Shown in pieces: positions 4,414 to 14,770 of a stretch of 36,605 bases of DNA; the stretch's first letter is position 1; every line of letters starts with the position of its first letter. The stretch lies in NCBI GenBank assembly GCA_937942475.1, contig CALDEP010000234.1, positions 1 to 36,605 on the forward strand, in the 5' to 3' direction. Source of the stretch: an uncultured Aureispira sp. (GTDB taxonomy: Bacteria; Bacteroidota; Bacteroidia; Chitinophagales; Saprospiraceae). Below the pieces are notes generated by a model. That model saw nothing but the letters and a program-made list of their open reading frames with translations, searched no databases and was not told where the DNA came from. A program made the position numbers and the translations under genes.

Positions 4414-7400
4414 CTATTTTGACACACGAAATTTTTTGTAATAAAGTCTAATAAACAAAAACAAGCTAGCAACCAGACCCAAAACGTACCAATACCAAGT
4501 GGAAGGTTTTAGTGTCAATGGAATGGCTTGTTGGTCGCCAATGCAAATCATACTCGCCCAAAAAAATGGATGGGCGGTAAAGCCCTTGTTATTTTGGAGG
4601 TACTGAATTTTTGCATTTTGCATCGCTTGATCTTTGGTCAGACCATTTGACAAACCAGTATAAAAAGATTGAACAACTTCGATACTTGTTTCGTCGTTGA
4701 GTTCCCACAAGGTCATGACGATACTAGGAATTCCAGCATACATGAAACTTCTGCCTAAAGAAATAATGCCTTCCCCTTGGGCATATTTTCCATAGCCCGT
4801 TTTACAAGCAGAAAGAACGACCAAATTGGCATTATTACCATTCAAATGCTGTGTCTCATAGGAGTACAATAAATTATCTTCTAAGGAATCTAAATTTTCG
4901 GTAAACAGCAAAGCCGAATAGGCAGGATGGTTGTAATCGACAAGACCATGCATCGCTAAATGAATCACACTATAATTTTGATGCTTTAACTGTTGCTTGA
5001 AATTATGCTCATTGGCTGCTTCATGCGTATAAAAATCACCTTTAAAACGCTGTTCAATTTGCTCCAATTCCGTTATTGTACCAGGAATAGGAGCGGCAGT
5101 ATTGTGGGTGTGAATTTCTTCGGCACTGCGTTCTTTTTTTAGCGCTGTTGGGAATTTTTGATAATCAAATTGAGTTCCATAATTGGCAGCAAAACCTAAG
5201 ATTTTTCCATTCGTAGTATTGACTTTTTTCTGATGATTAACCATAATAGCTGCCGAATATTCGTAATGAACCGAATAGTTCTGAATTAAATAGGGAAGCC
5301 TTTGATAATCAATTTCTTTGAGACTTGGTGCGCTAGTCAAGAGTACCTCAAAGGGAACATAATGCAAGGCTCTATCTGGGACAATAATTAAATGTTTTTT
5401 GCCCGCTAATAAAGGATCTTCCAAGACATTTTTATAGAGCCAATGGGCAGCATTGCAAAAGAGTGCATAGGCCTCTTTTTCTTGCTGTAAAATGAAGGTG
5501 ACATTGGATAAAGAACGTCGAAGGTTTTGAATTTTTCCATTAAATACATCGATATCTATATTTTGAATTTCTTTGATTTTGACGGCTTCTTTAGAGATGT
5601 AAATCACAAAAAAGTGGTTATCACTAATAAAGTATTCTATGAAGAGTTCATCTGCTGCTAAATGCGCTTGCACGGTTTCGGGGGAAACAATAGAATCTCG
5701 CCCATGATCCCAAGAGCGATAACTGGGATAGGTTGCTTGTAAATGCTGTTCAAAAGCATCCAATTCTTGTTCGAGCAACAATCTTTTTTGCAAATACAAG
5801 GCTTCTTTTTCGCTATTTTGCTCCTTCTTGGCTTCCAAAATATGCTCCTTGCATTGATCTATTTGAACAATATAGGTTTCTTCTTTTTGTAATAATTCTT
5901 TTGAAATGCCCGTGCCCCCTTCTTTATAATTGTTTCTAAATTTGAGAATGTTTTCATTCAACAAAGCCGATTTGCTATGTTCTGCATAATCAAAAATAGA
6001 CATTTTATACCTGTTGTTCTCTTGTTCTTTGTGCAAATGCCAGGCAGTAGCGGCTGCTTTTTCGTAGACAGGGCGAAGTCGATTGATGGATAATAATTTG
6101 GACTCGCTGTCAATGTAATTGTCTCTTAGGTAATTGGTTAGCAGGATGATGTTGTTAAAGTCATCGTGTGCTTTATGCAATTCTCCTTTTTCTACAAAAG
6201 CATCGCCTCTTTTTTGATAAGCTTCAATGGCAATGGACTTGTCCAATAAATATTCTAATAAGAGAATCTTATCATTCTGTGTTTCTGGGCTTTCATCCAA
6301 CATGAAAATTACACTATCCATATAAGCAATCGCTTTTTGATGCTGCCCTTCTTCTGCTGCCAAATGCCCTATTTTGAAATAAATAGAAGCAACTTTTGTT
6401 CCTTGATTGTTGTATTTTTGCCTTGCAAGATCCAAGGCTTTTAGATAATATATTTTTGCATTTTTATAATTTCCTAAAGCTTCCAAAGCACTGCCAATAT
6501 TCAAGTAAGCTTTGTCCACGCCCAATTGATATTGCTCTATATAGGCCATGTTTTTATCATAATAATCAAGGATAGAATCGTTGAAATTGAAGTGATTATA
6601 ATAATAAGCCATAGAAAGGTGCTCAAAATTATTTTCCCTTAGTTGAATGATTGGATCTTTAGATAGAAGGGGAATGTATTCTGGAATTTTTCCAAAGAAC
6701 AAATCTGCTTCATTCCTTTTTTCTTTCTTCTCATAAAGCCCTCCAATGCGTGTGCAGAGCTTGATGAGTTCTGCATAGTTTTTTAGTTTTTCATAAAGGA
6801 TAAAGGCATTTTTATAATACACAATCCCTTGTTCTACGTCTTCATTTTCCGAATACATACGACCTAAGTTGCTGTAATATTTGGCAACAGTCGAAGCGTC
6901 TTTTTTGTGATGATCTTTCAGCAGCAATTGATATTCGTACTCTAAGCCTTTATGGGTAAAATGAATGGCTTTTTCTATGCGCCCCTGTTGATATAAAATA
7001 GAGCCATACAACTGATAAATGTATTTAAAGGCCAAACTAGAATTTGGCAAACAACTTAAAGCCATTTGATAGGTGCTGTCCATGTGCACATCTATGCGAC
7101 TAAAATCACTTTCATTATTATAATAAATAGCATAAGTCGCAATCAAAGAAGCATTTACATAGCGCTTCCAATCTTTTTGCTGGCTCAGAATTCGACAAGC
7201 TTGTACGGCATTATCATAAGCCAACTGATAATCAGCAGCCCCCCACAAAGCCCAAGCTTTGGAGGTATAAAACAAGCCTAACAATCGACTGTCTGGAAAT
7301 AAACTTGCAGGTAATTTTTTAGAGATGTTGTTTAATAAGACAAGGGACTTTTGGAAGGAATCTTTTTGTGCCCAAATCGTAGCAGCATTAATCGTACAAT

Positions 7401-7599
7401 GTGCCAAGCCTTCTAAATTATTTTCTATTTTAAAGCCTTGTTTTGCCTTTTTATTTAGTCTTTTGGCTAGCCCTAAATCCATGTCTTCATAAATTAAAAA
7501 CTCACTACTATCAACCAGTTGTTGAGCCGATAATTGCTGTTGTGCTGGCAATGCTGTAGCGTAGAGGAATAGGAGTATATAGAAAGGAAGTAAAGGCAT
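4414..7599 (-). CDS. exported TPR-CHAT (caspase-like) protein with C-terminal membrane anchor
   Basis: A 1061-residue protein. Residues 1-20 form a signal peptide. About 30-500 are helical tetratricopeptide-like repeats with typical motifs (for example near 190-270 and 360-435), about 530-620 is a coiled coil, and about 640-1020 is a CHAT domain, a clan CD caspase-like peptidase fold. The catalytic pair is intact: H884 in a HLAMHG motif and C932 in LSACKTG, followed by the usual GEGI and FFWASM blocks. Residues about 1034-1054 form one membrane helix followed by a basic tail. The predicted layout puts the TPR and CHAT parts in the periplasm, anchored in the inner membrane. Targets are unknown. 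It is transcribed divergently from the 7730 gene across 130 bases. Confidence 0.85.
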   Translation of the reverse strand: MPLLPFYILLFLYATALPAQQQLSAQQLVDSSEFLIYEDMDLGLAKRLNKKAKQGFKIENNLEGLAHCTINAATIWAQKDSFQKSLVLLNNISKKLPASLFPDSRLLGLFYTSKAWALWGAADYQLAYDNAVQACRILSQQKDWKRYVNASLIATYAIYYNNESDFSRIDVHMDSTYQMALSCLPNSSLAFKYIYQLYGSILYQQGRIEKAIHFTHKGLEYEYQLLLKDHHKKDASTVAKYYSNLGRMYSENEDVEQGIVYYKNAFILYEKLKNYAELIKLCTRIGGLYEKKEKRNEADLFFGKIPEYIPLLSKDPIIQLRENNFEHLSMAYYYNHFNFNDSILDYYDKNMAYIEQYQLGVDKAYLNIGSALEALGNYKNAKIYYLKALDLARQKYNNQGTKVASIYFKIGHLAAEEGQHQKAIAYMDSVIFMLDESPETQNDKILLLEYLLDKSIAIEAYQKRGDAFVEKGELHKAHDDFNNIILLTNYLRDNYIDSESKLLSINRLRPVYEKAAATAWHLHKEQENNRYKMSIFDYAEHSKSALLNENILKFRNNYKEGGTGISKELLQKEETYIVQIDQCKEHILEAKKEQNSEKEALYLQKRLLLEQELDAFEQHLQATYPSYRSWDHGRDSIVSPETVQAHLAADELFIEYFISDNHFFVIYISKEAVKIKEIQNIDIDVFNGKIQNLRRSLSNVTFILQQEKEAYALFCNAAHWLYKNVLEDPLLAGKKHLIIVPDRALHYVPFEVLLTSAPSLKEIDYQRLPYLIQNYSVHYEYSAAIMVNHQKKVNTTNGKILGFAANYGTQFDYQKFPTALKKERSAEEIHTHNTAAPIPGTITELEQIEQRFKGDFYTHEAANEHNFKQQLKHQNYSVIHLAMHGLVDYNHPAYSALLFTENLDSLEDNLLYSYETQHLNGNNANLVVLSACKTGYGKYAQGEGIISLGRSFMYAGIPSIVMTLWELNDETSIEVVQSFYTGLSNGLTKDQAMQNAKIQYLQNNKGFTAHPFFWASMICIGDQQAIPLTLKPSTWYWYVLGLVASLFLFIRLYYKKFRVSK

Positions 7600-7729: not shown

Positions 7730-8383
7730 ATGAAAAAAACATTCAATCGTATTTTAGATCGTATGACGCATTTGTTGAATGGTTTAGGGAGTGCCTATGA
7801 CAACATCCATCGTGACTCGGAAATACATCGAACAGGAACGGATTCTTATGAACAGGCGATACGAGTTGAAATAGAAGGACGTTTGGTGGAAATTATTGTA
7901 GAAGCAACTTGTTTAGCAGAAGTAACCAATACCCGAACATATCAAGGCGATTCAATCCCTGCTTTTGATCCATTAGCCTTTGATTGGTCTATTATTTTTA
8001 GTGTAGTTTTGCTTAATAATAAAGATGCTTTAACCTTGCTTTTGACAAAGGAAACGACTAAACATAAACTAACAAAACTACTTTGGAAACGAGATTTGGA
8101 AGTGTTTGACGATGCTTTTGATGCTGAATTTTGGATAGAAAGTAATAATCCTTATGCCTATGGAATGTTGTTGGATGCAGCATTACAACAGCAATTATTA
8201 GCCAATTTGGATCTTTTTGGAACACTAGAAATTCAAGCCAATAAGGTATACTACAAAGAATCCTTATTAAAACAAAAAGAATTAAAAGCCACAAGGATTA
8301 AGAAGCACTCTGAATCTATGTTAGGGATTTGTTTGACCTTAGCAAAAAAGGTTGATCTGTGGGAACCGCCCCTAAAGGTTTGA
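7730..8383 (+). CDS. unknown protein, first of two paralogues before a YegI-like kinase
   Basis: A 217-residue soluble protein with no signal peptide or membrane helix. I do not recognise the family. An N-terminal helical part (1-40) precedes a beta-rich segment containing IEGRLVEIIV (48-57) and WSIIF (86-90), then a C-terminal domain with FDDAFDAEFWIES (126-138), a leucine-rich helix, a short basic strand NKVYYK (171-176) and a final LAKKVD helix (204-209). The same elements occur in the same order in the 8513 gene, which suggests an old duplication. The pattern FDdxFxxxfxvxS...lxxLxxx...ixxxxvyyk resembles domains found in several cytosolic unknowns such as the DUF3137 group, but only loosely. 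It shares a divergent 130-base upstream region with TPR-CHAT. Confidence 0.65.
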   Translation: MKKTFNRILDRMTHLLNGLGSAYDNIHRDSEIHRTGTDSYEQAIRVEIEGRLVEIIVEATCLAEVTNTRTYQGDSIPAFDPLAFDWSIIFSVVLLNNKDALTLLLTKETTKHKLTKLLWKRDLEVFDDAFDAEFWIESNNPYAYGMLLDAALQQQLLANLDLFGTLEIQANKVYYKESLLKQKELKATRIKKHSESMLGICLTLAKKVDLWEPPLKV

Positions 8384-8393
8384 TCCTTTTAGG
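8371..8393 (+). terminator. weak hairpin overlapping the stop codon
   Basis: CCTAAAGG (8371-8378) and CCTTTTAGG (8385-8393) pair with one bulged base, and the right arm is followed by CCTTG and six T residues. The left arm covers the last codons of the 7730 gene. It may be a weak terminator or attenuator between the two paralogues, so downstream kinase expression could also have its own promoter in 8394-8512. Confidence 0.45.
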
Positions 8394-8512
8394 CCTTGTT
8401 TTTTATTGATTTTACTTAGGTGATTTTGCTTTCAAAAACTAAAGTTGTATCTTGGTTTTACTCAAAAATACTCCAACTGAAAAACTCTTATTAGAGAATA
8501 CAAAAGCAATTT

Positions 8513-9106
8513 ATGCTACATAGATTATTTGCTAAAGAAACATTTGAACACATAGAAACAGAGTTGAAATCTGTTTATCAGGCGCTTGGAGTAGAAGAAG
8601 GGACCTTGAAAGTGAAAAAACAGGCTGCAACTTACGCTAAACCTTATAGCTATATCGCAGAAGGCAGCATTGAAGGGCATCGTTTTGTGTTGAGTTTGAG
8701 CCAAACACCACTAAAAGTACAGGAATTAAAACAGCAGTTGGAATTAATCATTCAATGTGAAAATCCTAATTGGGCGACCTTGATCTTCCGAAAAAAAAAT
8801 GCACTTGAATCAGCCGCTAAAAAAACATTGGGTATAGAAGCCCTTCCTCAATTGAAAAATGTTAACTTGGATAAGTTGATGGTAGAGTCAAGTGATCAGG
8901 AATGGACGGAGGTATTGTTTGATGCTTCTATGGGAAAAAAAGCAGCCATTATGGATGAAATTAAATTTTCCTCTTTTGTCTTGGAACGAAAACGCTTGTA
9001 TGTAAAAATGCCTTGGTTGCCAGAGGATTTTTCAACAAGGCAAGCCTTAATTCAGGTATTAGATTTTTCGATTCGTTTGGTGAAAAAAATAGATGCACCA
9101 GAATAG
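8513..9106 (+). CDS. unknown protein, second paralogue before a YegI-like kinase
   Basis: A 197-residue soluble protein without signal or membrane helix. It parallels the 7730 product: IEGHRFVLSLS (53-63), WATLIF (87-92), a LDKLMVESSDQEW segment (119-131), the basic strand RLYVK (161-165) and the ending IRLVKKID (187-194). The two share order and hydrophobic pattern more than identity, so homology is likely but not proven. Its stop lies 41 bases from the kinase start, which argues for co-transcription. In this position it could be a regulator, substrate or partner of the kinase; that is inference from neighbourhood only. Confidence 0.65.
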   Translation: MLHRLFAKETFEHIETELKSVYQALGVEEGTLKVKKQAATYAKPYSYIAEGSIEGHRFVLSLSQTPLKVQELKQQLELIIQCENPNWATLIFRKKNALESAAKKTLGIEALPQLKNVNLDKLMVESSDQEWTEVLFDASMGKKAAIMDEIKFSSFVLERKRLYVKMPWLPEDFSTRQALIQVLDFSIRLVKKIDAPE

Positions 9107-9147
9107 GTCAATTTTTTAAGCCCTAAATTTTTAATAAAGCCCCCTTC

Positions 9148-11742
9148 ATGCCGAATGAATATCTTTTAAAAGAGAGTAGAATAGTTATTGAACTAGCTGC
9201 CACACCTTTTGCAGGAGGAGGAGAAGGTGATTTGTACAAAATAAAATCGCCAACAGCCTACCAAAATTATGTTGCCAAGCTTTACCACCCACACAAAATT
9301 AGCCAAGAACGGGAAGAAAAAACAGAATACCTGATAGAGCATCCACCCCTTGGACTTTCTGAGAATGGATCTATTGTCTGGATTAAAGATGCGCTGTACA
9401 CCAAAGATTATAAATTCGTGGGCTTTATCATGCCTTTTGCAAAAGGAAAAAAATTAGAGTTGTTGTGTTTGGGTAAACTGCCTAAAAAAATAGGAAAAAA
9501 CTGGGCACGCTTTGATCTAAAACATCCTGATGCTCTTAAATATCGACTGCGGATTTGTTTTAATTTAGCAGCAGCAATTTATCAAATGCACGCCACCGAT
9601 CATTATGTATTGGTGGATCTGAAGCCTGAAAATATTATCATACAACCCAACGGTTTATTGGCCATTGTTGATACCGACTCGGTTCAAGTGATCGAAAATG
9701 AAGTGGCTATTTTTCCTGCTCCTGTAGCAACGCCCGAATATACACCGCCAGAGTTTTATCGTAGTCATCGGCAAGAAAATGGAACGATTGGAGAGCCTTG
9801 GGATCGCTTTGGTTTGGCTGTGATTTTTTATAAATTATTGTGTGGCATACATCCCTTTGCAGGATCGGCAAAACCCCCTTATGATAATTTGGTTAGTTTG
9901 CACGAAAAAATTGAACATGGCTTGTTTGTACATCGTACACTCAACAGAAGTGTTTTTTCTGTTATTCCACCGCCCCATAAACAGTTTGAAAAATTAGATC
10001 CTAATTTACAAGAACTCTTCATTCAATGTTTTGAAGAAGGGCATCAAAACCCTGAGGCTCGACCTGCGGCGGATGAGTGGTGTTCGGCTTTGTTGGAAGC
10101 GATTGGAGATAGCACTTACGAGGCGCATTTTGCTCATATTTTGGGGCTTTGGGGTAGTTCTTCTAGGGGTAAAATACAAATGCCTTCTACCTTGTACCGA
10201 AAAAGCATCAAGGTTATTCACCCCAAATTTTGGTTGGAACAAAAAATTGAAGCTGCTTTTGATAGCTTGCCTGCTTTGTCTATTCCTCTACATCAAGCAA
10301 TAGAATCGGGTAAACAATCGGTCAAATTAGCGTTGACCTCCAAGGATTATTTGCTTTCTATAGGGCTGTTTTCTACTTTGTTTTACGCTATCTTATTTTT
10401 TACGCCTTTGGGAACCTGGTTGAGAGGAGATTTTTGGTTGTCAGAAGTTTGGCGGATTAATTTGGTTGCTCTTGTAGTAATGGCAAGTCCTTTGATTATT
10501 TTTCCTCGACTGATTTCTTGGGCTCGACATATTGCATCACCTGAACGGAAAGTTCGGAAATTGTGGAATAGCTTTCGATTAACCTATCCACAATTGAAAC
10601 AAGATGTAGTTGAAACCAAGCGCATTTTGTTAGAAAAAATTCTGACTCGTCACAAGAAAGAAATAAACGAATTTTCGACCAAATCAACTCAATATGAAAG
10701 GCCTTTAAAAGAATATTTAGAACAGCAAGATGCTAAGGTAAAAGCCTTGATGAATAAACGAAAAGTGGCTTTAAATGCCATTAGTGAAAAATATTTAGGG
10801 CAGGCGGTCAACAATCAGCTCTGTTCGGAGATGAAAGGTCGTAGCGTTCTTGCTTTAAACAAACGCTTGAACGATTTTTATCAAAAAAAACTAAATGCAG
10901 TAGGACAGAAAGAGACGCAAGCTTTGAATGATCATTATCAAAAAGAAAAGCTAAGCTTAAAAGAAAAAGATGCGAGCGAACAGGAAGCTTTGATGGAAGA
11001 AGCGCTGTGTATTTTTGATTGGAAGCACTTTTATGAAAAACACCTAGACAGTAGTTTATTGGAAGAGACGATGCTGAGAGATGTGCTAGACGATTATCAA
11101 ATAAAAGGACTAAAAGACATTCAGTCAATGGATTGGGATGAACGAGGGAATCTAATTCTTCGCCCTTACAAAGCGCAATTAAATAAAAATGGGAAGGTCA
11201 AACTCATTCGATTAACGGCTAAGTTGTACTCGAATTTAGAAAGCCTTAGAGCTATTTATCTGACGTACCAAGAGGGGATAAACTATGCTCAAACCCATGA
11301 TATTAATTATGGAAAAGCTTATTTTCAAGAGCGTTATGCGCTTAGACGAAAGCAATATGATGAAGCCTTAAAAAGCTTGGAGGATACTTATAAAGAGCAA
11401 GGAAAGAAGTTGGCGAAAACCGATTTTAAGGAAGAAAAGCAAGCTTTAAAAGACGACTTCAAAGCAGCTCAAGTATTATTACAACAATTAGTAGCCAAAG
11501 AAAAAGAGGCTGTTGATTTAGTCGAAGAAAATTATATCACGGAATATCAAGCCATCTACAAAGAGAGTGAAGTGGAAGTGCTGAAGGTAAAAGAAGTGGT
11601 GGAAGCCTTAAATGAAGGTTATAAAATAGAGGTCAATAAACTCTTAGCAACATCAAACGTAGAAAAAATCCAAATTTCTATGAAAGGAAAAATCGAACAA
11701 GCCAAGAAAGATATTGTGGAATTAGAGCGCCTTAAACTTTAG
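9148..11742 (+). CDS. YegI-like membrane-anchored protein kinase with coiled coil
   Basis: An 864-residue protein. Residues 15-320 are a protein kinase domain of the YegI/TerY-P-associated type: glycine-rich loop GGGEGDLY (23-30), lysine K44 in the VAK motif, catalytic VDLKPEN (D157, K159, N162), metal-binding DTDS in place of DFG (D175), a TPEYTPPE segment (195-202) and a HPFAG motif (235-239). Two hydrophobic helices at about 401-420 and 436-454 follow, then about 400 residues of charged helical coiled coil, with a possible degenerate helix-hairpin-helix near 636-660. With two membrane helices the kinase and the coiled coil should both be cytoplasmic. Characterised relatives sit with VWA and PP2C genes; none is in this window. 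Catalytic residues look intact. Confidence 0.85.
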   Translation: MPNEYLLKESRIVIELAATPFAGGGEGDLYKIKSPTAYQNYVAKLYHPHKISQEREEKTEYLIEHPPLGLSENGSIVWIKDALYTKDYKFVGFIMPFAKGKKLELLCLGKLPKKIGKNWARFDLKHPDALKYRLRICFNLAAAIYQMHATDHYVLVDLKPENIIIQPNGLLAIVDTDSVQVIENEVAIFPAPVATPEYTPPEFYRSHRQENGTIGEPWDRFGLAVIFYKLLCGIHPFAGSAKPPYDNLVSLHEKIEHGLFVHRTLNRSVFSVIPPPHKQFEKLDPNLQELFIQCFEEGHQNPEARPAADEWCSALLEAIGDSTYEAHFAHILGLWGSSSRGKIQMPSTLYRKSIKVIHPKFWLEQKIEAAFDSLPALSIPLHQAIESGKQSVKLALTSKDYLLSIGLFSTLFYAILFFTPLGTWLRGDFWLSEVWRINLVALVVMASPLIIFPRLISWARHIASPERKVRKLWNSFRLTYPQLKQDVVETKRILLEKILTRHKKEINEFSTKSTQYERPLKEYLEQQDAKVKALMNKRKVALNAISEKYLGQAVNNQLCSEMKGRSVLALNKRLNDFYQKKLNAVGQKETQALNDHYQKEKLSLKEKDASEQEALMEEALCIFDWKHFYEKHLDSSLLEETMLRDVLDDYQIKGLKDIQSMDWDERGNLILRPYKAQLNKNGKVKLIRLTAKLYSNLESLRAIYLTYQEGINYAQTHDINYGKAYFQERYALRRKQYDEALKSLEDTYKEQGKKLAKTDFKEEKQALKDDFKAAQVLLQQLVAKEKEAVDLVEENYITEYQAIYKESEVEVLKVKEVVEALNEGYKIEVNKLLATSNVEKIQISMKGKIEQAKKDIVELERLKL

Positions 11743-12030: not shown

Positions 12031-13389
12031 TTATTTACTCGGCTTTAACTGTTTTTGTAAAGTATCGTATTGTGCTTCCATGGTAGTACACTTTTCTTCT
12101 AAGCTTTGGATGGCCGTTTGTTGTTCTTGAATGGCTTTGGTTAATACAGGAACCAAACGGGTGTAATCGACTGCCCAAAGATCTTTAGATTCGTCTTCTG
12201 GAGCATAAACAGCTTCAGGAACTAATTTGAACAAGTCTTGAGCAACAAAACCAATATCTAAACTACTGCTATTGTCAATGAATAAAAGACCATTTTCGTC
12301 TGTTGTAGAATTGTGGTGTTGGTACTGTAAAGGGCGCAACTGCAAGACGGTTGAAAGACCATAAGGAATGCTTTTTCGTTGATCTTTTAGACGACCATCA
12401 GAATAAGTTACCCAAGCATTGGCACGTCCTCTACCTGTTCCAACGGCTGTATTATTAGGCAATTCTAAGGCATAAGCTGGTGTAAGTATTGTTTGTAAAC
12501 CAACTCTTGCATTTCCTCTAATAGACATGGCAGGCGTTCGAATATTATCAGAACCTTTCATGGTGAAAACGATTCCACCATCTGGGTCAGCATTATTGCC
12601 ATCTGTTTTTTCAAACACTAGAAAGTCTAAATTTGTACCTGCAAAATTACCATCGTAATAAATCTTAGCACGATCTCCAGAAACAACTCCATCCATAGGG
12701 ATCTCCCCTGCAAAACCAATCCCAAATGTTCCATTGATTTGCATTCCTCCACCATTCAATTCTAACCGTTGGTCAGGGGTTTGCGTTCCAATTCCTACAT
12801 GTTGCGTTGCTGTATTAATTGTAAACGTAGTCCAATTGTCAGTACCCGTATAACGAGTTCCAATTCTAAAGGTGTTTCCAGCATTAAGTGCCCCATCATA
12901 AAAGCCTATCATAGCACCTACAGAACCATTGTCTTGATACATTTCAAACCTTGGATTGTCATCCTCGTTATTATCATCTGTATCAGCTTCCAATCGAAGG
13001 ATCGCATCGCCAGCAGTGCCACTTGAAATGTGCGTAATAGTCAAAGGATTATCGGTGCCAATTCCTACCCGTCCAGCAAAATAAGCTCCTCTAGCACTAA
13101 TAGAAGCCGAAGGTAATTGCCAAGTTCCTGCTCTAACAGCATCAGAGTGGAAATGAAAAACACCACTACCACCTAAGATTAATGAATTGACATCATTATA
13201 ACTCATGTAGTCGTTGTTGATATTGGTAGCAGCATCATGTGATACATAAATATCTTGTCCACGAACAAATACATCTCCAGCTACATCTAGCTTTTCCAAA
13301 GGATTATTAGTGCCAATACCTACGTTTTGAGCAAATAAGGCGCTACTTAGAAACATCAAGGAACTCAATAAAGTAATTTTAATTTTCAT
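12031..13389 (-). CDS. exported VGIGT-repeat protein with C-terminal S74 chaperone domain (copy 2)
   Basis: A 452-residue protein. Residues 1-20 are a signal peptide ending ALFAQ. VGIGT-x-x-P motifs, common in Bacteroidota surface proteins, occur near residues 22, 107 and 199 and probably start beta-rich segments. The last about 125 residues are the endosialidase-type intramolecular chaperone (Peptidase S74): YSDGRLKDQ with S330 as the expected self-cleavage serine, IGFVAQDL, WAVDYTRLVPVLTKAIQEQ and a final coiled coil. In phage tail spikes this domain helps trimerise a beta-helix and then cuts itself off; the same role is inferred here. It begins 4 nt after the stop of its upstream paralogue, so both are one operon. 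No T9SS sorting domain is visible. Confidence 0.85.
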   Translation of the reverse strand: MKIKITLLSSLMFLSSALFAQNVGIGTNNPLEKLDVAGDVFVRGQDIYVSHDAATNINNDYMSYNDVNSLILGGSGVFHFHSDAVRAGTWQLPSASISARGAYFAGRVGIGTDNPLTITHISSGTAGDAILRLEADTDDNNEDDNPRFEMYQDNGSVGAMIGFYDGALNAGNTFRIGTRYTGTDNWTTFTINTATQHVGIGTQTPDQRLELNGGGMQINGTFGIGFAGEIPMDGVVSGDRAKIYYDGNFAGTNLDFLVFEKTDGNNADPDGGIVFTMKGSDNIRTPAMSIRGNARVGLQTILTPAYALELPNNTAVGTGRGRANAWVTYSDGRLKDQRKSIPYGLSTVLQLRPLQYQHHNSTTDENGLLFIDNSSSLDIGFVAQDLFKLVPEAVYAPEDESKDLWAVDYTRLVPVLTKAIQEQQTAIQSLEEKCTTMEAQYDTLQKQLKPSK

Positions 13390-13393
13390 AGCT

Positions 13394-14770
13394 TTAGTTT
13401 GAAGTTTGTTCTTTACTTGGATTTAATTGCTTTAGCAAGGCATTGTATTGCGTTTCGATGGCATTATACCTTTCCTCTAAGCCTTTGATTGTTGCTTGTT
13501 GTTCTTGAATAGCTTTGGTTAATACAGGAACCAGACGGGTGTAATCAACCGCCCAAAGATCTTTAGATTCGTCCTCTGGAGCATAAACAGCTTCCGTAAC
13601 TAGGTTGGCTAAATCTTGAGCAACAAAACCAATATCTAAACTACTACTATTATCAATTTGTAAAAGACCCTTTTCATCTGTCGTAGAATTATGGTGTTGG
13701 TATTGCAAAGGGCGTAATTGCAAGACGGTTGCAAGACCATAAGGAATGCTTTTTCGTTGATCTTTTAGACGACCATCAGAATAAGTTACCCAAGCATTGG
13801 CACGACCTCTACCCGTTCCAACGGCTGTGTTATTAGGCAATTCTAAGGCATAAGCTGGTGTAAGTATTGTCTGTAAACCCACTCGTGCATTTCCTCTAAT
13901 CGTTAGCGCAGGGGTGCGAATATTATCAGAACCTTTCATAGTGAAAGAAATCCCACCATCTGGGTCAAGATCATTGCCATCTGTTTTTTCAAAGACTAGA
14001 AAATCGTTGTAAACAGCAGGACCAAAATCACCATCATAATAGATTTTAGCACCGTCTGAACCAACAGGTCCATCCATAGGAATATCGCCTAAAAAGCCAA
14101 TCCCAAATTCTCCATTGAGTTGCATTCCTCCTCCATTCAGTTCTAGACGTTGATCTGGGGTTTGAGTGCCAATCCCTATGTTTTGAGTTTGAGTATTGAT
14201 GGTAAATGTAGTCCAATTGTCAATGCCACCATTACGAGTTCCAATTCTAAATATATTTCCAGAATTAAGTGCCCCATCATAAAATCCAATTAAAGCACCG
14301 CCTAGACCTCCATCTTGATACATTTCAAGTCTTGGGTTGTCGTCTTCATTGTTATTGTCTGTGTCGGCTTCCAATCGAAGAATTGCATCGCCAGCAGTGC
14401 CACTTGAAATGTGTGTAATGGTCAAAGGAGCATCTGTTCCAATGCCTACCCGCCCAGCAAAATAAGCGCCTCTAGCACTAATAGAAGCCGAAGGTAATTG
14501 CCACGTTCCAGCTCTAGCTTGGTCTGAATGAAAGTGAAAAATACCACCACTCCCTAAAGTTGAAGGGACAGCATCATTGTAGCCCATATAATCGTTATTT
14601 ACATTAGCGGCATCATCCTGTGACATATAGATATCTTGCCCACGAACAAGCAAATCTCCAGCTACATCTAGTTTTTCCAAAGGGGTATTGGTACCAATAC
14701 CTACATTTTGAGCAGGTAGGAGCTTGCTTAGTAGGAGCAAAAAAGCAAACAGAGTAATTTTAATTTTCAT
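13394..14770 (-). CDS. exported VGIGT-repeat protein with C-terminal S74 chaperone domain (copy 1)
   Basis: A 458-residue protein with the same plan as its downstream neighbour: signal peptide ending LLPAQ, VGIGT and related motifs near the N-terminus and near residues 107 and 199, and an S74 chaperone with S331 in YSDGRLKDQ followed by IGFVAQDL, WAVDYTRLVPVLTK and a coiled coil. Long blocks are identical between the two, especially from about residue 290 through the chaperone start, while the middle differs by scattered substitutions and small insertions (for example around 245-260). This points to a fairly recent tandem duplication, perhaps with gene conversion. It is the first gene of the pair. 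Confidence 0.85.
   Translation of the reverse strand: MKIKITLFAFLLLLSKLLPAQNVGIGTNTPLEKLDVAGDLLVRGQDIYMSQDDAANVNNDYMGYNDAVPSTLGSGGIFHFHSDQARAGTWQLPSASISARGAYFAGRVGIGTDAPLTITHISSGTAGDAILRLEADTDNNNEDDNPRLEMYQDGGLGGALIGFYDGALNSGNIFRIGTRNGGIDNWTTFTINTQTQNIGIGTQTPDQRLELNGGGMQLNGEFGIGFLGDIPMDGPVGSDGAKIYYDGDFGPAVYNDFLVFEKTDGNDLDPDGGISFTMKGSDNIRTPALTIRGNARVGLQTILTPAYALELPNNTAVGTGRGRANAWVTYSDGRLKDQRKSIPYGLATVLQLRPLQYQHHNSTTDEKGLLQIDNSSSLDIGFVAQDLANLVTEAVYAPEDESKDLWAVDYTRLVPVLTKAIQEQQATIKGLEERYNAIETQYNALLKQLNPSKEQTSN

Follow-up and report, generated by a model that had tools for sequence, protein, structure and literature searches.

A kinase-linked protein with a predicted CCDC47/TtfA fold in Aureispira

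What does a membrane kinase of the YegI type do in the company of two small proteins that have no database family? The question is raised by the 36,605-nucleotide contig CALDEP010000234.1 (assembly GCA_937942475.1) of an uncultured Aureispira sp., the whole of which is called the window here. As predicted earlier from the DNA alone, three open reading frames (ORFs) lie on its forward strand: Orf1 (7730-8383, 217 amino acids (aa)), Orf2 (8513-9106, 197 aa) and a kinase (9148-11742, 864 aa). The original prediction held that the small proteins are paralogues, that the three genes form a unit, and that the pair may stand in for the kinase's usual VWA and PP2C partners. In the present analysis Orf2 and the kinase look like one unit, and Orf1 looks like a separate, optional gene. 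Comparisons were made within a genus group comprising the window's own genome (G000) and eight relatives of the same genus (G001-G008); a further Aureispira isolate, Cli_1 (G352), was counted outside this group.

In Pfam, NCBIfam and PADLOC, Orf1 had no family match at an expectation value (E) of up to 1. Orf2 matched no usable family in the same collections, a sub-threshold Pfam match to CdiA_C (E 0.052) being all that was returned; this and a weak match to GutM were dismissed as being under the Pfam cut-off. Direct comparison of Orf1 and Orf2 by BLASTP gave nothing significant (E 3.1). The predicted paralogy was judged by profile-profile comparison, in which the Orf2 alignment (9 rows) matched the Orf1 alignment (15 rows) with a probability of 97.8 and an E of 8.7e-13 over 186 columns. 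The match persisted without the window's Orf1 and its closest relative (E 6.8e-11), and the Orf2 profile also matched subsets of Orf1-type proteins that were mostly membrane-anchored (1e-08), soluble (8e-07) or kinase-linked (1.6e-07). As controls, two reversed and five column-shuffled comparisons yielded E of 0.3-0.69, and the best E among 20 other neighbour families compared with both alignments was 0.0061 (only families of at least 4 members and no more than 600 aa were used). An alignment of Cli_1 proteins (six of nine genes of a tandem array and one other gene) bridged the two, matching Orf2 at E 8e-17 and kinase-linked Orf1 at E 5.5e-17, with three control families at 0.16-0.74. Among 233 same-strand kinase neighbours, an Orf1-type profile recovered the Orf2-type proteins (E 1.7e-16 to 6.2e-05); no further relative found there was convincing. 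One gene upstream of a kinase (L112, E 0.004) was considered as an extra Orf2 and rejected, as it matches an OEP efflux protein. The five motifs that had suggested the relationship (IEG, W...IF, VES/IES, YVK/YYK and KKID/KKVD) do occur in both proteins in that order; four of them share alignment columns, but the two W...IF stretches are not aligned with each other. On this sequence evidence, Orf1 and Orf2 are true distant paralogues. The ratio of nonsynonymous to synonymous substitution rates (dN/dS) was ~0.2 for both (G000 v. G001).

The structures of both proteins were predicted with AlphaFold (AF2). The Orf2 model, made from a 6-row alignment, had a pLDDT of 79.9 and a pTM of 0.78; the Orf1 model, made from 8 rows of which six were Orf2-type, had values of 78.2 and 0.78. 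For Orf2, the single Foldseek match below E 0.001 was TtfA (trehalose monomycolate transport factor A of mycobacteria, 6t84; E 5.5e-6). Candidates were re-scored in VIA-align, whose Z lists could not be entered by folds that Foldseek had ranked lower. The same four chains led both lists: 7tm3_4 (Z 12.9), 9i78_4 (12.5), 6w6l_7 (12.2) and TtfA (11.6) for Orf2, followed by SycT at 8.6, and 7tm3_4 (13.1), 6w6l_7 (12.4), 9i78_4 (11.7) and TtfA (11.2) for Orf1, followed by a match at 8.0. Three of these four chains were also found for Orf1 by Foldseek, at E 1.6e-4, 1.7e-4 and 2.9e-4, the last being TtfA. The three translocon chains superposed on the two models with Z 11.7-13.1 and a root-mean-square deviation (rmsd) of 3.4-4.0 over 175-190 residues, and TtfA with an rmsd of 4.8 over 162 residues (Orf2) and 4.3 over 157 residues (Orf1). 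In 7tm3 and 6w6l, we take the matched chain to be CCDC47. The 9i78 chain was read as CCDC47 because its size (371 residues) and aligned ranges (86-368 and 98-375) fit the ranges in which CCDC47 was docked (residues 76-370, 371-417 and 417-447, as given in an excerpt of PMC12572126). Type III secretion chaperones and YbjN match the core topology (Z 5.3-8.6), but they are shorter and their scores fall well under those of TtfA and the CCDC47-bearing chains. Orf1 and Orf2 are thus predicted by the models to have the CCDC47/TtfA fold. Their identification as VWA, PP2C or known defense proteins was rejected, family matches being absent and the fold different.

Both reference proteins work at membranes. 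According to an excerpt of PMC6593404, TtfA is membrane-anchored with a cytoplasmic C terminus, binds MmpL3 and is needed for MmpL3 transport. CCDC47 belongs to the PAT complex. Excerpts of PMC9630114 and PMC7505659 place it in the multipass translocon, and the latter source describes a protein that crosses the membrane once, has a large globular domain in the cytosol and ends in a coiled coil. The two Aureispira proteins depart from both. CCDC47 is eukaryotic and carries its own membrane span and coiled coil, and TtfA has an N-terminal helix and MmpL3 as its partner, whereas a hydrophobicity scan revealed no N-terminal hydrophobic helix in Orf1 or Orf2 and the gene next door encodes a kinase. 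No paper naming TtfA and CCDC47 together was found in the literature search.

The kinase was assigned by a Pfam match to Pkinase (E 2.3e-16) and by its likeness to E. coli YegI, as had been predicted (BLASTP, E 1e-16 with 24% identity across 404 residues; the kinase of the genome's VWA-PP2C-kinase trio matched YegI at E 4e-20). In its kinase domain (residues 24-312; 9217-10083), residues K44, D157, K159, N162 and D175 (of the DTDS motif) are invariant in all 16 aligned family members, which agrees with the earlier view that the domain is intact. The two membrane helices that had been pointed out correspond to hydrophobic segments at residues 401-419 and 434-457 (10348-10518; Kyte-Doolittle scan), but they are commonplace: such segments were present near residues 380-460 in 22 of the 23 family kinases scanned, including those linked to VWA and PP2C genes. 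The tail (from approximately residue 480 to 864; 10585-11739) is charged and poor in proline, with 2 prolines in residues 505-864 and 26-43% E/K/Q/R per 72-residue block. This composition fits the long coiled coil of the original prediction, which is probable. Between G000 and G004, residues 331-864 are 52% identical and residues 1-330 81%. A zinc ribbon or OB fold was sought in the tail, and no Pfam match beyond Pkinase reached the cut-off; matches of the kinase to PD-T4-6 and PglW were confined to the kinase domain and dismissed. Judged from its sequence, the protein belongs to the YegI/TerY-P family, is intact and is anchored in the membrane.

The family's known setting is the TerY-P triad, which comprises a VWA protein, a PP2C phosphatase and a kinase with a C-terminal zinc ribbon or OB fold (excerpt of PMC11090510); the corresponding E. 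coli genes yegL, pphC and yegI were checked and stand together. The window kinase belongs to the same family but adjoins proteins of predicted TtfA/CCDC47 fold. No VWA or PP2C match was obtained in any window ORF scanned with Pfam, and profile labels agree. That the kinase is without its usual partners was thus correctly predicted, but it is not special in this respect. A scan of the genome contigs with the kinase sequence alone returned nothing, and one with alignment A4 returned 66 loci. The window's own genome has at least 9 family kinases (15 of 28 first-look candidates were scored), one of which (L065) has VWA and PP2C genes upstream. As for the others, Orf2 adjoins the window's kinase, a GNAT gene lies upstream of a second (L062), a row of three follows AcrB and OEP genes (L063), and those at L064, L066 and L067 lack VWA, PP2C, GNAT, AcrB/OEP and Orf2 neighbors. 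In a tree of 73 kinase domains (midpoint root only), 43 Saprospiraceae kinases formed one group (support 98/98), none of which was seen with VWA or PP2C neighbors (two are at contig ends). Eight more kinases without these neighbors fell outside the group; therefore, the loss or lack of the VWA and PP2C partners is not one event on the tree. Six Orf2-linked kinases of the window's clade grouped together (83/91), and Orf2 adjoins all six. The GNAT-linked kinases also grouped (100/100), in seven rows of which three adjoin Orf2 as well.

Two other arrangements of family kinases were observed. In seven genus-group genomes, the gene immediately upstream of a YegI-family kinase encodes a GNAT acetyltransferase (L062 5886-9905, L055, L059, L060, L073, L083 and L084; the L055 call was made by Pfam scan and the others by profile). 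YegI-family kinases also occur in rows of two or three (L063 2610-14220; L100 1862-13273; L108), and the rows at L063 and L100 sit behind genes for an AcrB-type RND pump and an OEP protein.

The survey of gene neighborhoods separated the two small proteins. Orf2 was present in 9 of 9 genus-group genomes and adjoined a family kinase in all eight in which the contig continues, with gaps of 17-145 bp. As G004 and G008 are near-identical, these represent seven independent cases of linkage, and they span two different sites and two kinase clades. Orf1 was found at the locus in three of the nine genomes and was absent there from the other six. The full triplet was seen in G000, in the order Orf1-Orf2-kinase, and in G005, where a kinase fragment nearest the GNAT-linked type precedes Orf1, Orf2 and the kinase; in G001, Orf1 and Orf2 are followed after 36 bases by the contig end. 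G003, G004 and G008 have Orf2 and the kinase without Orf1. G002 has, at a different site, the order GNAT-kinase-Orf2-kinase; G006 and G007 have GNAT-kinase-Orf2, the window-type kinase not being among the matches there. The triplet therefore did not hold as a unit: the expectation of a small protein as the kinase's neighbor was borne out for Orf2 but not for Orf1. The sequence immediately 5' of Orf2 (8489-8512, +) is kept as a leader in genomes with and without Orf1, as judged from an alignment of G000, G001, G004 and G008. A terminator-like stem-loop spans the end of Orf1 and the start of the gap before Orf2 (8371-8393, +); it is a weak candidate, as the consensus scan found 2 such elements v. 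3.3 expected by chance. In G001, the gap between Orf1 and Orf2 contains a perfect 28-nucleotide palindrome without a loop (L054 14493-14548).

Beyond this locus, the two proteins have relatives of several designs. The Orf1 profile matched 7 of 296 Bacteroidota genomes, the window's own among them; the Orf2 profile matched the own genome only and none of the other 295. Eight further genomes were searched with the Orf2 profile; Cli_1 was matched at 7 places (best E 1.3e-16), and the other seven had no match. No Orf2 relative was detected in the viral contigs searched. Nine tandem genes of Cli_1 match the Orf1 profile, and seven of the nine also match the Orf2 profile (L200 7117-13322); five family genes stand in tandem in G029 (L075 6868-10441). 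Nearly all proteins of these two arrays begin with a hydrophobic helix. An N-terminal hydrophobic helix was found in 8 of 15 Orf1-type proteins (alignment A2), in none of the Orf2-type proteins, and in 11 of 12 Cli_1 relatives, the twelfth scoring 1.56 where the line was drawn at 1.6. These anchored relatives have TtfA's layout of a helix followed by the domain. A related domain forms the C-terminal part of SulP transporters in three genomes (G000 and two of other genera; L191 1-1938, L188 1369-3402 and L189 1348-3192). By sequence comparison, this is a family outside the coverage of Pfam, with members in Aureispira and elsewhere in the Saprospiraceae as well as in a few further Bacteroidota. 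Its nearest Pfam entry was DUF3137 (PF11335), to which 7 of 15 and 10 of 17 members had near-matches at E up to 1 (best 1.1e-05), while Orf1 and Orf2 themselves had none at that threshold. Profile comparisons with DUF3137 gave E of 0.00027 to 0.45, rough values because the 29 ORFs used were chosen by position and included at least one wrong-strand ORF and a few short ones. Membership of Orf1 and Orf2 in DUF3137 was rejected, as the curated Pfam cut-off was missed. DUF3137 is itself expanded among G000-G008, each genome having 3-8 matches; of 51 other relatives searched, 47 have no match or a single one.

The reading we favor, at slightly less than an even chance, gives the kinase its own cytosolic adaptor or regulatory subunit in Orf2, with Orf1 as an optional second copy. 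What the data show are the homology, the predicted fold, the linkage and the intact catalytic residues. Binding, membrane docking, topology, phosphorylation and a client we infer as follows. A short hairpin would anchor the kinase in the inner membrane, leaving the catalytic domain and the long tail, which is probably coiled, on the cytoplasmic side. Orf2 would be a soluble CCDC47/TtfA-fold domain working at the membrane face, a location suggested by analogy because TtfA and CCDC47 both serve polytopic membrane proteins, on whose cytosolic side the known members of the fold are placed. The kinase would supply the anchor that Orf2 is missing, since many relatives carry an N-terminal helix, some related domains are fused to a SulP transporter, and Orf2 has neither. 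Orf2 may then tether the kinase to a membrane protein that is its client, or gate the kinase's activity, and may itself be phosphorylated at T40. Orf1 would be a second, optional adaptor; it is probably transcribed on its own and might serve a different client or enter a heterodimer.

Several observations weigh against this reading. In G006 and G007, Orf2 is paired with a kinase clade that lacks Orf2 elsewhere (G000, G001, G003 and G008); therefore, the pairing is not exclusive. The linkage is confined to one genus group and partly reflects vertical inheritance. In Cli_1, contigs 490, 137 and 181 carry the seven matches to the Orf2 profile and the ten kinase matches are spread over ten different contigs, although these contigs are short and the distances between Orf2 relatives and kinases are only partly known; of the Cli_1 kinases, L089 is the closest to that of the window, and the gene before it is YhhN rather than Orf2. 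The Cli_1 result therefore lowered our estimate for the adaptor from an even chance to its present level and slightly raised the small one for mere neighborhood, discussed below. The SulP ends match the Orf1 profile (E 1.2e-7) and not the Orf2 profile (E 0.19). The structural evidence also has its limits: Foldseek TM-scores were modest (for Orf1, 0.38-0.58 across its three matches with E under 0.001; for Orf2 with TtfA, 0.49 and 0.53), rmsd values in VIA-align ranged from 3.4 to 4.8, the alignments behind the models were thin (6 and 8 sequences), and the two models are not independent, as Orf2-type rows were used for Orf1. Profiles A1, A2 and A8 had no match to CCDC47 or TtfA among PDB sequences at E up to 10. 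A common fold, moreover, does not confer a function, and the partnership and its function are proposed from sequence, model and linkage.

A gene beside a kinase often encodes its substrate. Orf2 and Orf1 could accordingly be substrates rather than subunits of the kinase and act on another membrane machine, as TtfA does with MmpL3, whose transport requires it (PMC6593404, in excerpt). T40, which lies in a basic stretch and is the sole Ser/Thr invariant across the nine Orf2 sequences, would be the candidate target, but a single conserved Thr in nine related sequences is a weak indication, and Orf1 has no established equivalent. We regard this explanation as unlikely, though less so than the other alternatives. 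Less probable still is that Orf2 and the kinase are neighbors by descent only, in a conserved region and without a joint function. Every case of linkage falls within the genus group, several genomes of which share the site near SmpB, and the relatives and kinases of Cli_1 are on separate contigs. Against this, Orf2 and a kinase remain adjacent in G002, where the site is another one, and in G006 and G007, where the kinase is of another clade, while the CHAT-TPR, S74 and other neighboring genes vary. There is a low probability that Orf2 serves the membrane kinase as its own chaperone or assembly factor, comparable to a type III chaperone or to CCDC47 in membrane protein biogenesis. The matches to CCDC47-bearing chains (Z 11.7-13.1) and to type III chaperones (Z up to 8.6 for Orf2 and 8.0 for Orf1) would accord with such a role, but 8 of the 9 family kinases found in the own genome have no such neighbor, so an adjacent chaperone is not generally needed. 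The replacement of VWA and PP2C by Orf1 and Orf2, as originally predicted from their position beside a kinase that lacks both, is very improbable: the predicted fold, which is that of CCDC47, TtfA and type III chaperones, resembles neither, six of the nine genomes lack Orf1 at the locus, and many family kinases have none of these neighbors.

The surroundings of the block were also annotated. Divergent from Orf1, a gene for a TPR-CHAT protein of 1061 aa occupies 4414-7599 (-); it was seen at the locus in G000, G003, G004 and G008 and not in G001, G002 or G005-G007. On the other side, a tandem pair of paralogues at 12031-14770 (-) each has a C-terminal Peptidase_S74 (endosialidase chaperone) domain. 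Genes further on include those for SmpB, a DtxR-type repressor, TatC and Ppx-GppA; given these, a link to type VI secretion, raised by a TssO match (E 0.054), was rejected.

Returning to the adaptor, papers on YegI, PphC, YegL, TerY, TerY-P and kinases of Aureispira or Saprospiraceae were surveyed, and the arrangement appeared in no title or abstract opening, hinting that a pair of this kinase and its putative adaptor is undescribed. In a wider and speculative interpretation, to which we assign a slim chance, Orf2 and the kinase would together be a bacterial equivalent of the PAT and TtfA systems that is controlled by phosphorylation, in which a CCDC47-fold module governed by the kinase oversees the insertion, assembly or activity of membrane proteins; the anchored arrays, SulP fusions and kinase-linked forms would then constitute a bacterial branch of a CCDC47/TtfA superfamily. 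More immediately, a family outside Pfam gains a predicted fold and a testable role, and part of it is tied by genome position to a membrane kinase. Kinases of the TerY-P family exist without phosphatase or VWA neighbors and stand instead beside GNAT proteins or proteins of predicted TtfA/CCDC47 fold. CCDC47 and TtfA are accessories of membrane machines whose biochemical role is unsettled, and a kinase-linked bacterial relative may offer a simple system for learning what this fold does.

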